This document shows, piece by piece, positions 3,542 to 24,951 of a stretch of DNA of 29,049 nt (within the stretch, counting starts at the first letter, position 1; every line of letters starts with the position of its first letter). The position numbers were made by a program, and so were the translations under genes. This DNA is from a virus. Under the pieces are notes generated by a model, which was not told the origin of the DNA, searched no databases, and saw only the letters and a program-made list of their open reading frames with translations. Where the stretch lies: positions 1 through 29,049 of the IMG/VR virus record IMGVR_UViG_3300048625_000072. One strand, 5' to 3'.

Positions 3542-4696
3542 ATGTCTAACAAGATTAATCTCGTAGAAAATGCGATTGCTCGCATTGAAGAGAACACCAC
3601 GAAGCGTCAGATGGAAGCTGCAAAGCTTTACTTCGCCGCTAAAGAGGGCGACGTTCGCGCTCGCGTAACTCTTCAGGAAGGTATCTCCACTTCGGATGTT
3701 CCTACTCTTCTTCAGCCTGCAATCAATGTTGAGTTCCTTTCCAAGTATGCTGTTCAGCCTACTGTCTGGAACCAGATTGCTCAGGAGAAGCAGCTTGAGT
3801 TCAACACTGAGTACAAGTTCGGTAACTTCGTTATCGATGCTTCGTCACTTGGTAACGTAAACGGAAGCACTCACACTGCTGGTGGACTCCCCGTAGTTCC
3901 CGAGTACGCTGAGTACCCTGCTGTCAAGTTCACTACTTCTTCTTCGAGCGTTACACTGCGCGACAAGAAGGGTATCCGCGCACGTCTGTCGTGGGAAGCT
4001 CTCCGCAAGTCGGGTAACTTCGACCTCATCAACGAGTTCACTACCTACTTCGCTGTTGCTGCTGCTCGTGAAGAGGACTTCGTTCTTGCTAAGCAGTTCG
4101 TTACCGCTGGTGGAGCTGCTGCTTCCGCTTGGTCAGGTAAGGGCGTTTCGGGTAACCCGACTCTTGCTGGCGATGTTAATGCTGCTCTTGAGGCTCTCGG
4201 TGCTGCTAAGACTGCTTCGCGTAACTTCAAGGTTGACGGTAACCCGATTGCCGTAAACCAGTGGAAGCTCGTTCACGGTGTTGCACTTACCCCGACTGTT
4301 GACAAGCTGTTCAACCTGACCGGTGTTAGCCACCGTCAGACCACAACAGATGGCACGCTTGACTTCGCTGTCAACCCCGGTGTTTACACTGGTGGAATTG
4401 CTCCTGTTGAGTTCCCTGCACTCGATGGTGTTTCTGCTGGAGCAACGGATGACTTCTGGTTCCTCGTTCCCGTTAACCCCGTTCGCCCGAACTTCCACGA
4501 GTTCTTCCTCACTGGTGAGCGCGCTCCGCTCATCACCATCAAGGACAGCGGTCACATGTCGCTGGCTGGTGGAGAGGTTCCCGTTCGTGAAGGCTCGTTC
4601 GATGAGGATGACATTCAGACTCGTGTTCGCCACCTCGTTGAGGCTGGAACCATGAACTCTGATGGCTTCGTCTACTCGACTGGTGCTGGCGTTTAA
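3542..4696 (+). CDS. Major capsid protein (HK97 fold)
   Basis: This 384-residue protein forms the icosahedral shell. An N-terminal helical segment (MSNKINLVENAIARIEENTT) precedes the capsid core, and STSDVPTLLQPAINVEFLSKY is typical of the start of the HK97-fold domain. AEYPAVKFTTSSSSVTLRDKKG resembles the backbone-helix and P-domain strands. A late segment (residues ~305-325) resembles the end of the A-domain. A good AAGGAT Shine-Dalgarno (3529-3534) precedes the ATG by seven bases. Codon use is strongly C-ending (TTC, AAC, TAC), unlike the terminase and portal, which fits a very abundant product. A rho-independent terminator begins 20 bases after the stop. Confidence 0.88.
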   Translation: MSNKINLVENAIARIEENTTKRQMEAAKLYFAAKEGDVRARVTLQEGISTSDVPTLLQPAINVEFLSKYAVQPTVWNQIAQEKQLEFNTEYKFGNFVIDASSLGNVNGSTHTAGGLPVVPEYAEYPAVKFTTSSSSVTLRDKKGIRARLSWEALRKSGNFDLINEFTTYFAVAAAREEDFVLAKQFVTAGGAAASAWSGKGVSGNPTLAGDVNAALEALGAAKTASRNFKVDGNPIAVNQWKLVHGVALTPTVDKLFNLTGVSHRQTTTDGTLDFAVNPGVYTGGIAPVEFPALDGVSAGATDDFWFLVPVNPVRPNFHEFFLTGERAPLITIKDSGHMSLAGGEVPVREGSFDEDDIQTRVRHLVEAGTMNSDGFVYSTGAGV

Positions 4697-4716
4697 TTAT
4701 CACTCCATTAAGATTT

Positions 4717-4742
4717 GCCCCTCGCTTCGGCGGGGGGCTTTT
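4717..4742 (+). terminator. Rho-independent terminator after the major capsid gene
   Basis: A nine-pair stem GCCCCTCGC/GCGGGGGGC (one G-U pair) closes on a UUCG tetraloop (4726-4729) and is followed by TTTT. It lies 20 bases after the capsid stop and before the promoter of the next gene. Confidence 0.88.
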
Positions 4743-4749
4743 CTTATGT

Positions 4750-4762
4750 TAGGATAGAGGTT
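4750..4762 (+). promoter_or_regulatory. -10 box just before the cysteine-rich gene
   Basis: TAGGAT at 4750-4755 with 7 nt to the ATG at 4763. The upstream terminator makes a new promoter necessary here. AGAGG at 4756-4760 could act as a very close Shine-Dalgarno, so leaderless initiation is likely but not certain. Confidence 0.55.
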
Positions 4763-5254
4763 ATGGAAGAATACGATATGCTTAATGACCGTCAGCGTAA
4801 ACAGGCTGAACAGTATGCTGAACTTGCTGTAGAGTATGGCATGTTTGACCAGACTACTGGCGCTAATGGTGCTCACTATGCACCAGCGAAACTAAACCCT
4901 TTTGTGAAAGAGGGAATGGCTTGCAAGAATTGTGTGTTCTTTGATGAGGCCGGCAACCAGTGCCAGATTGTTTCTGGACCTATTGAGCCTGAAGCAGTTT
5001 GCAAGCTGTGGGTTATTCCAGAGAATCTTCTTGTTGGGGTACAGCCACCTAAGGCTATGGAAGCTGCAATCAACATTAAAGAGTTTTATATTCGTAAGGA
5101 TGCGCCCGGTTGTAAGGGTAGCTGGGCCACGGTTGATGGTAAGGGTGATATTGTAACCTGCCATGAAACTAAAGACCAAGCAGTCAAGCATATGGTTGCT
5201 GCGTCTATCGGTGCTGGCGAGCAGCCCGGTGGTGAGTGGTCACCTAAAAAGTAG
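4763..5254 (+). CDS. Cysteine-rich protein with HiPIP-like CxxC cluster
   Basis: This 163-residue protein has two recognisable parts. Residues 54-80 hold C54-x2-C57-x9-C67-x12-C80 in a context (KNCVFF, then VSGPIEP and CKLW) resembling the high-potential iron-sulfur-like or zinc-ribbon motifs found in phage head-region proteins. Residues ~107-145 hold a small domain (CKGSWATVDGKG, VTCHETKDQAVKHM) of the kind seen appended to actinophage head proteins. I chose ATG 4763 rather than 4715 because the earlier start lies upstream of the terminator hairpin and has no ribosome site. It is a single-gene unit with its own promoter, between capsid and connector genes. The metal bound and the role are unknown. 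Confidence 0.7.
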   Translation: MEEYDMLNDRQRKQAEQYAELAVEYGMFDQTTGANGAHYAPAKLNPFVKEGMACKNCVFFDEAGNQCQIVSGPIEPEAVCKLWVIPENLLVGVQPPKAMEAAINIKEFYIRKDAPGCKGSWATVDGKGDIVTCHETKDQAVKHMVAASIGAGEQPGGEWSPKK

Positions 5255-5268
5255 GCTTGATTCTACTG

Positions 5269-5280
5269 TAAGATAGAATT
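5269..5280 (+). promoter_or_regulatory. Overlapping double -10 box (TAAGATAGAAT)
   Basis: TAAGAT at 5269-5274 overlaps TAGAAT at 5274-5279. By the spacing seen at other sites (6-7 nt), the first box would start RNA at 5281-5282, the first bases of a hairpin. A similar overlap (TAAACTAGAAT) occurs at 26281-26291. Confidence 0.55.
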
Positions 5281-5345
5281 GCATGGTTCCTCCTCCAATC
5301 CAGCCATGCTTGGCCCCCCGTTGTAGCTTATGCTCCGGGGGGCTT
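5281..5345 (+). ncRNA. Candidate small RNA with anti-Shine-Dalgarno loop
   Basis: Between the promoter at 5269 and the terminator at 5313-5345 there is no credible gene. The predicted RNA begins with a six-pair hairpin, GCATGG (5281-5286) with CCATGC (5304-5309), whose loop contains CCTCCTCC (5289-5296). A strong G+C terminator hairpin follows. The loop is a perfect nine-base complement (with the following A) of TGGAGGAGG at 24937-24945, the ribosome site of the metallophosphoesterase gene, and pairs with shorter stretches of other Shine-Dalgarno sites. The alternative is an untranslated remnant or a 26-codon ORF from 5283, unlikely because it runs through the terminator. The call is structural inference only. 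Confidence 0.35.
5313..5345 (+). terminator. Rho-independent terminator upstream of the connector operon
   Basis: A perfect eight-pair stem, GCCCCCCG (5313-5320) with CGGGGGGC (5336-5343), encloses a 15-base loop that can itself form AGC-TTAT-GCT. The following tract is TTCCCC, poor in T, so termination may be less efficient than at 4717 or 9107. Confidence 0.65.
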
Positions 5346-5355
5346 CCCCATGAGG

Positions 5356-5367
5356 TAGAATAGAGTT
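5356..5367 (+). promoter_or_regulatory. Leaderless-type promoter of the connector/tail operon
   Basis: TAGAAT at 5356-5361 is followed by 6 nt and the ATG at 5368. It lies immediately after a terminator, and no Shine-Dalgarno is seen (TAGAGTT precedes the ATG). This is one of the clearest members of the family. Confidence 0.68.
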
Positions 5368-5763
5368 ATGGCAAATACAGGCGTAGCACCCGTAGACTTG
5401 GGTTCAAACATTGGTCGTGTTCGTGTACTACTCGGAGACACTGACCCAACAAATATTGTTAACACTACTGGCGAATATCTTTTCTTCAGCGATGCTGAAA
5501 TTGAATCTATTCTTACCATGTATGGTGATAATCCTAAACTGGCTGCTGCACGCGCTCTTGAGACTATTGCGGGGTCGCAAGCGCTTCTGCTAAAGTCGTG
5601 GTCATCTGATGACTTGACAGTTAATGGTGACCGTATCGCTAAGGAGTTACGTGAGACTGCTAAGCAGTTGCGCGCTGAGGCTGCCGATTGGGAGTCTAGT
5701 GATTTCTATTCACTGATTCAAACCATTGATGCTGATGACCCTACGGTGACGTGGTGGAATTAG
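5368..5763 (+). CDS. Head-tail adaptor (HK97 gp6-like connector)
   Basis: This 131-residue, mainly helical protein has the usual features of phage head-to-tail adaptors. An opening GRVRVLLGDTDP is followed by FFSDAEIESILTMYG and an Ala-rich helix (LAAARALETIAGSQALLLKSW). Such proteins form a ring bound under the portal. The position after the capsid genes and before a head-closure protein fits. The start is leaderless in appearance (TAGAAT, 6 nt, ATG). The next gene begins one base after its TAG stop, so the two are probably translationally coupled. Confidence 0.78.
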   Translation: MANTGVAPVDLGSNIGRVRVLLGDTDPTNIVNTTGEYLFFSDAEIESILTMYGDNPKLAAARALETIAGSQALLLKSWSSDDLTVNGDRIAKELRETAKQLRAEAADWESSDFYSLIQTIDADDPTVTWWN

Positions 5764-9139: not shown

Positions 9140-9173
9140 TAGGATGTTTCTATCAAACTTTATGGAGGATTTA
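9140..9173 (+). promoter_or_regulatory. Promoter and ribosome site of the tail chaperone gene
   Basis: TAGGAT at 9140-9145 would start RNA near 9152. GGAGG at 9164-9168, five bases before ATG 9174, is a strong Shine-Dalgarno. This unit therefore has a short leader and decides the start against the earlier ATG at 9144, which lies inside the -10 box. Confidence 0.6.
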
Positions 9174-21761: not shown

Positions 21762-24757
<2,996 letters not shown>

Positions 24758-24761
<4 letters not shown>

Positions 24762-24936: not shown

Positions 24937-24951
24937 TGGAGGAGGGCAACT
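24937..24951 (+). promoter_or_regulatory. Unusually strong ribosome binding site of the phosphoesterase gene
   Basis: GGAGGAGGG at 24938-24946 is six bases or so before ATG 24952. It is the strongest Shine-Dalgarno in the window, and its TGGAGGAGG (24937-24945) is perfectly complementary to the loop of the candidate RNA at 5289-5297. Confidence 0.7.

Follow-up and report, generated by a model that had tools for sequence, protein, structure and literature searches.

The window, by which we mean the whole 29,049-nt stretch of viral DNA analyzed here (positions 1 to 29,049 of IMG/VR record IMGVR_UViG_3300048625_000072), carries on its plus strand a major capsid protein gene (3542–4696; PF25209 Phage_capsid_4, E 1e-17), followed by an intrinsic terminator (4717–4738, plus strand) that parts the capsid transcript from the unit described below. 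Next comes a small leaderless gene (4763–5254, plus strand; no match in a Pfam search) with a TAGGAT box 6 nt 5′ of its ATG at 4763; the mechanically called start of this frame, TTG 4715, overlaps the capsid terminator (region 4715–4769), and the ATG is the likelier start. A gene-free gap of 113 bases (5255–5367) separates the stop of the small gene (5254) from a gene for an adaptor-like protein of 131 aa (5368–5763, plus strand), leaderless, with a −10 box of its own (TAGAAT, 5356–5361, plus strand) 6 nt 5′ of its ATG. A Pfam search with the adaptor-like protein returned no match, and its relatives are annotated either as hypothetical or as “Putative adaptor protein Ad1”. Annotation of the capsid gene is likewise uneven: the RefSeq entries for phages CN1A, Molivia and Amigo (L009, L012 and L013) call it a “head maturation protease”, whereas its homologue in the window has a match to Phage_capsid_4, and for the Arthrobacter phages the GenBank records give major capsid protein. 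Elsewhere in the window, a long gene with collagen-like GAT/GPT repeats (21762–24761) probably encodes a tail fibre.

Within the gene-free gap lies a predicted small RNA of ~64–66 nt (5281–5344, plus strand), consisting of a hairpin (P1), a linker and a second hairpin (P2). Its predicted start, 5281, is preceded at 6 nt by a −10 box, TAAGAT (5269–5274, plus strand), for which a −35 match is absent; an overlapping −10-like box, TAGAAT (5274–5279, plus strand), lies 1 nt from the hairpin and is probably not used. Since a consensus promoter scan of the window returned no −35/−10 pair, the promoter would be of the −10-only type. P1 (5281–5309, plus strand; GCATGG/CCATGC, 8 pairs in the fold) holds CCTCCTCC (5289–5296) within its loop, which is 13 nt long in the minimum-energy fold; the exposed loop reads CCUCCUCCAAUC (5289–5300, plus strand), and its extension CUCCAAUC (5293–5300) is the complement of the GATTGGAG start-associated sites found in two relatives, G002 and G003. 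P2 (5312–5344, plus strand) has an internal bulge and is terminator-like in most relatives; the window has GUUGUAGC there in place of the family consensus GUUGAGC and shares with two near-identical relatives one extra base after the bulge. As a 66-nt RNA (5281–5346), the sequence folds into exactly two hairpins at −32.7 kcal/mol (z = −4.3; none of 200 shuffles reached this stability). An earlier note on this DNA had pointed to the gap and its size, the double −10 boxes and the 5281–5309 hairpin with its loop motif, all of which we recover; its “strong terminator” stands as to the strength of the hairpin but not as to a T-run, which the window (TTCCCC) and several relatives lack, although several others (L034, L029, L326) have T-rich terminator ends.

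To see this element in its relatives, we picked loci by protein alone, through either the capsid or the adaptor. The element is kept in many phages of Actinobacteria and in a few others, mostly directly 3′ of the capsid gene and in one general layout: a −10 box, usually ~6 nt away, a P1 hairpin with C(C)UCCU in its loop, a short linker and P2. It stands 5′ of the adaptor gene in the near relatives and in ~30 further IMG/VR contigs, and occurs also in Clavibacter phage CN1A and Stenotrophomonas phage Jojan60. In Pseudanabaena phage Pan2 and the Microbacterium phages ISF9, Lyell, PhillyPhilly and Wolfstar, the CUCC-loop hairpin is nested in a longer outer hairpin; the Arthrobacter phages Amigo and Molivia have one terminator hairpin only, with the loop TTCCTCC. 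The RNA lies 3′ of the capsid gene but 5′ of an unrelated gene in L326, L331, L334, L337 and L346, and hundreds of bases further down in L348, L352, L354 and L369. Some capsid relatives, e.g., OlinDD, Lifes and Nonagon, have no such RNA in the available stretch.

Several loci depart from this layout. In L320, two consecutive CUCC-loop hairpins (TATCCTCCTG and TTCCCCCTCTCCTG) followed by a P2-like hairpin stand ~560–680 bases after the capsid stop. In L328, L358 and L330, ~70–110 bases after the capsid stop, the outer stem of P1 is longer and interrupted, and the P1 loop, TTTACCTCCTTTC/A, is almost identical to the 16S tail. One 44-kb contig (G006; IMGVR_UViG_3300037348_000018) carries the RNA and its neighbor genes at both ends (2209–2284 and 43128–43203), probably because the assembled genome is circular or terminally redundant.

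Among 300 genomes of the host-candidate family (that of a Microbacteriaceae MAG) we found no native copy: the sole true match is the MAG’s phage contig, and three weak matches are other hairpins. Scanning IMG/VR with the P1 pattern recovered true RNAs at this locus only, with no copies elsewhere. By these searches the element is a phage trait. A scan of IMG/VR with the P2 pattern alone was rejected, nearly all of its matches being chance occurrences in coding sequence, and a capsid profile built from 13 sequences was too divergent for scanning.

Compensatory change supports both hairpins. In an alignment of 27 sequences, which was fitted to the model so that the score leans towards it, the covariation score was 0.549 compared to 0.149 for shuffled sequences and collapsed on sliding; paired cells amounted to 93.9% (69.6% when shuffled), and both sides had changed in 17 of the 21 pairs. 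This holds across clades for every one of the five pairs modelled in P1 and for 12 of 16 in P2, where the invariant pairs are the G-C before the bulge and the G-C and A-U after it, the bulge being flanked by GAG/CUC. A MAFFT alignment of 18 sequences from one clade agrees (0.341 compared to 0.117 shuffled, again collapsing on sliding). Compensated P1 stems in relatives include GCGTGG/CCACGC, GTAGC/GCTAC, CCAGC/GCTGG and GTGGTCG/CGACCAC, with 25 distinct inner stem arms among 30 hand-listed lineages; the perfect pairing score for that list (“own paired 1.0”) was set aside as evidence, being circular for stems picked by hand. The earlier note had proposed looking for compensatory bases in relatives and held that relatives keeping the terminator alone would speak against its reading; the compensated changes are there, and relatives retain hairpin and loop.

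The combination of features is also enriched well beyond chance. Using a strict rule (a −10 box, a spacing of 4–8 nt, a hairpin of at least 5 pairs and CTCC in the loop), we recovered it in 22 of the 49 lineages selected by capsid (clusters at 90% identity for which the sequence was long enough), compared to 1.6 expected from dinucleotide shuffles; the same search with other loops gave 2 lineages for GGAG, 9 for CCCC and 7 for TTTC. The count of 22 of 49 is approximate, since two calls are doubtful (L016, and L321, in which the rule picked out a terminator while the true RNA is at another position) and several true members, e.g., L028, L328, L330 and L358, are missed by the strict rule. A covariance model built solely from the clade of the MAFFT alignment matches clades with another downstream gene (L326, E 5e-7; L331, 1e-6; L341, L334 and L346, 5e-5), and also L034, L028, L352 and L004. 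Against this model, whose clade is not that of the window, the window gave a sole match, at 5279–5345, which is weak (16.3 bits, E 0.18); the window RNA is tied to the family by L001, which is nearly identical, and by L004, L028 and L034, where the RNA has the same location. No Rfam family matches at the gathering threshold, and relaxed thresholds applied to the RNA of the window and relatives returned only a chance-level ar14 match. Sub-threshold Rfam matches to RsmY (E 0.07) and BTnc231 on the minus strand of L352 (2624–2763, after the capsid gene) are probably chance. We are highly confident that this is a real, conserved and apparently undescribed RNA family, and the comparison of relatives lends strong support to the suggestion of a phage small RNA with an anti-Shine-Dalgarno loop.

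The 30 hand-listed lineages, whose hairpins were picked by a CTCC loop with the −10 box playing no part in selection, also bear on where the RNA begins. TANNNT lies 4–7 nt 5′ of P1 in 25 of them, and L034 has one −10 box only, TATGAT, at 6 nt; this nearly fixed distance places the RNA start most likely at the foot of P1, in agreement with the earlier proposal that transcription begins on the first hairpin bases. The same list yields the loop core: CCTCCT occurs in 24 of the 30 P1 loops, of which only CTCC, and not the outer bases, was used for selection. As RNA, this core, CCUCCU, is a copy of the 16S rRNA anti-Shine-Dalgarno tail, and several loops copy 7–10 bases of that tail (L337, UCACCUCCUU; L330, ACCUCCUUUC). 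An exposed complement of the Shine-Dalgarno sequence, conserved under structural constraint, is one feature expected of an anti-Shine-Dalgarno sRNA, and we observe it here. We consider it likely that the loop is kept for pairing with Shine-Dalgarno sequences.

Because the window, a 29-kb fragment, lacks most of the early region, we examined long contigs of relatives for targets; of the relatives that offer such contigs, G002 and G003 are the closest. G002 has a capsid 99% identical to that of the window and the same loop, and GATTGGAG stands at 7 of its 38 start sites (0.17 expected, p = 6e-10); in G003 it stands at 4 of 58 (0.26 expected, p = 1.5e-4). In both, no other NNNNGGAG start-associated 8-mer is as frequent as GATTGGAG, GGAG at starts is preceded most often by the four bases GATT, and all GATTGGAG start sites are on the strand opposite the structural genes. 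The flanks of the seven G002 sites are unrelated, so the sites are not copies of one longer repeat. Only the GGAG part of GATTGGAG can pair with 16S rRNA, and the CUCCAAUC part of the loop is kept in the window, L027, L028 and L034 while the stems change. Genes with such a site include those for SSB (PF00436, phrog_44) and a DNA polymerase III beta-clamp relative (PF02767), as well as phrog_12365, a conserved unknown whose gene carries the site in G002 and G003 alike.

Beyond this clade the matching is less distinct. In 14 of 15 other sequences tested, the window included, GATTGGAG occurs at 0 or 1 start site; Pan2 (ON968453.1) has it at 4 of 83 starts (p = 7.5e-5), though the loop of its RNA is CCUCCUUUCG. 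For CN1A and ISF9, with UUCU after CUCC in the loop, AGAAGGAG ranks first and is close to a generic Shine-Dalgarno sequence. Across 15 phages, loops match their own ribosome-binding sites only slightly better than foreign loops do by duplex energy (p = 0.009), and exact own-loop matches of at least 8 nt give p = 0.14; specific target matching is thus clear only in the window’s clade. In the window itself, the earlier note had named as targets a phosphoesterase gene and the tail-chaperone gene, whose ribosome-binding sites do contain a nine-base (TGGAGGAGG, 24937–24945, plus strand) and a seven-base (TGGAGGA, 9163–9169, plus strand) complement of the loop; G003 keeps GGAGGAGG at the former, and the tail-chaperone orthologues in both G002 and G003 keep TGGAGGA. 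These possible targets are plausible but weak, as the structural strand carries both and chance matches are to be expected of C/T-rich loops, and the early-strand genes with GATTGGAG in G002 and G003 appear to be better candidates.

Translation signals differ between the strands. With gene starts called mechanically and “early” read from strand and gene content, strong Shine-Dalgarno sites precede 68 of 152 early-strand genes compared to 37 of 175 on the structural strand (p = 6e-6, five phages pooled); the contrast is significant alone in four, but not in CN1A, nor in the window. Some structural-strand genes, e.g., that of the tail chaperone, keep strong sites. In almost every lineage with the RNA (L053 and L207 being exceptions), the gene that follows it is leaderless and has little Shine-Dalgarno sequence, and nearly all RNA-bearing relatives share the layout of the adaptor-gene promoter, with its −10 box 6 nt 5′ of the ATG. 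In lineages without the RNA, a Shine-Dalgarno sequence is present at this gene in nearly all (exceptions L018 and possibly L228). As both the RNA and the leaderless neighbor are clade traits, confounded by common descent, this is an association rather than proof. The earlier statement that many genes are leaderless thus holds for the gene after the RNA but not genome-wide: 8 of 27 structural-strand genes in the window look leaderless by the mechanical test.

Taken together, the reading we favor, and for which we see about an even chance, is that of a trans-acting late anti-Shine-Dalgarno RNA whose main role would be repression of early genes. A small phage RNA would start at the foot of P1 and end at P2, and would be made late, along with the structural genes; P1 would expose a copy of the 16S tail, which would pair with Shine-Dalgarno sequences and lower translation of the mRNAs that depend on them. 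Its chief targets would be the phage’s own early (replication-strand) genes, the leaderless operon after the RNA being spared, and in the window’s clade the extension CUCCAAUC would add specificity by matching GATTGGAG at early-gene starts. The two-hairpin structure, the compensatory changes, the loop core, the promoter distance, the leaderless neighbor and the GATTGGAG match in two relatives are read directly from sequence; transcription, its timing and amount, and repression of translation by pairing we infer. Alternatively, GATTGGAG could simply be the form that ribosome-binding sites take in this clade, with the RNA having no effect on it.

The loop would also suit a global decoy, an abundant RNA that pairs with Shine-Dalgarno sites at large, shifts translation from host mRNAs to leaderless phage mRNAs and has no particular phage targets. 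Recurrence of the 16S-tail core, of up to 10 nt (L337, L330), in unrelated stems fits such a role, as do the leaderless adaptor gene and the weak overall target matching among 15 phages; we nevertheless think it unlikely, given that these phages have strong Shine-Dalgarno sites of their own on the early strand and at some structural genes, that very high amounts of RNA would be required, and that the GATTGGAG match in the window’s clade points to phage targets. Slightly less probable still is a cis-acting transcription element, in which P1/P2 form a regulated terminator or an antitermination RNA (as HK022 put) heading the tail operon, with the C-rich loop binding a factor. The nearly fixed position upstream of the structural operon, the invariant GAG/CUC and bulge of P2, which suggest more than a plain terminator, and the T-run missing from several members, the window among them, would be explained, but in nearly all members a separate promoter lies 6 nt 5′ of the adaptor-gene ATG, T-rich terminators end several members, the RNA can also precede an unrelated gene or lie hundreds of bases away downstream, and the identity of the loop with the 16S tail would be left without explanation.

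Titration of a host RNA-binding protein, e.g., Rho or a cold-shock protein, by C-rich loops (that of P1 and, in one clade, the P2 loop ACCCCCUUCCC) appears very unlikely: in the L029-type clade both hairpins do have C/T-rich loops, but other clades lack the C-run in P2, and it is CCUCCU in particular, not C/T-rich sequence of any kind, that forms the core (CTCC in 22 lineages, CCCC in 9, TTTC in 7). Least credible, and in our judgment highly improbable, is that the gap holds nothing more than a common terminator and promoter plus a C/T-rich hairpin that arose by chance, or else a very short leaderless gene of 26 codons (ATG 5283) for a peptide. The window hairpin does contain an ATG and P2 is terminator-like, but covariation and loop enrichment argue against chance, and the ATG is absent in relatives L034 and L029 while the frame is shifted in L025, which is one base shorter than the window; with neither start codon nor frame conserved, the peptide reading was rejected. 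An antisense reading was rejected as well, the minus-strand start codon after GGAGGAGG being lost in L004.

The late anti-Shine-Dalgarno RNA that we favor has counterparts among known bacterial and phage systems. In 6C RNA of Actinobacteria, the UCCC-motif sRNAs of Firmicutes and Yfr1 of cyanobacteria, exposed C-rich segments have been proposed to pair with G-rich ribosome-binding sites. The phage RNA shares such an exposed segment and is set apart from these by Rfam search, in which no 6C covariance-model match was found on the RNA of the window or relatives. The alpha-r14/NfeR1 (“cuckoo” RNA) family of Alphaproteobacteria (RF02344) has loops with an unchanged CCUCCUCCC anti-Shine-Dalgarno motif on very different stems, and NfeR1 lowers its target mRNA by pairing at the ribosome-binding site with no need for Hfq (PMC10746234). 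The phage RNA likewise combines a CCUCCUCCC-type loop motif with variable stems (CCTCCT in 24 of 30, CTCC being preselected), and the double hairpins of L320 recall the repeated anti-Shine-Dalgarno hairpins of alpha-r14 RNAs; the latter, however, are chromosomal, with three such hairpins and no bulged P2, whereas the phage RNA is viral and nearly fixed in place within the structural module. The RF02344 ar14 covariance model scored the window at 9.9 bits (E 6.1) against a cut-off of 58.8, which does not place it in that family. The endoribonuclease RegB of phage T4 inactivates early mRNAs at GGAG of translation initiation regions, while late mRNAs escape (PMC3014915); RegB is a protein nuclease made early, whereas the proposed phage agent would be an RNA made late that blocks by pairing. 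The phage RNA is thus best read as resembling alpha-r14/NfeR1 in action and RegB in logic, yet belonging to neither.

A further parallel lies in the start-associated sequences (SAS) of cluster K mycobacteriophages and cluster EF Microbacterium phages, over-conserved at ribosome-binding sites and composed of a Shine-Dalgarno core and bases unpairable with 16S rRNA (PMC3203893, PMC7302621), for which the cluster K authors leave open whether RNA or protein is the binder (PMC3203893). The SAS sequence, GGGATAGGAGCCC, differs from the GATTGGAG of the window’s clade, and the first 50 kb of TM4 contain ten GATAGGAG sites but no complementary CTCCTATC RNA. A widespread actinobacteriophage class may be entertained, if tentatively, in which a late non-coding RNA mimicking the 16S tail would serve as a translational switch and silence Shine-Dalgarno-led early phage (and host) mRNAs via start-associated sequences co-evolved with its loop, the structural operon escaping because it is leaderless.

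This work adds to phages an apparently undescribed, covariation-supported RNA family, which is recognizable in cultured phages (Clavibacter CN1A; Microbacterium ISF9, Lyell and PhillyPhilly; Stenotrophomonas Jojan60) and is therefore directly testable. If the proposed role is true, the RNA would be a counterpart of T4 RegB, would provide a reason for the existence of leaderless phage genes, and would suggest what sort of partner, open to testing, the so far unexplained start-associated sequences of other actinophages might have.
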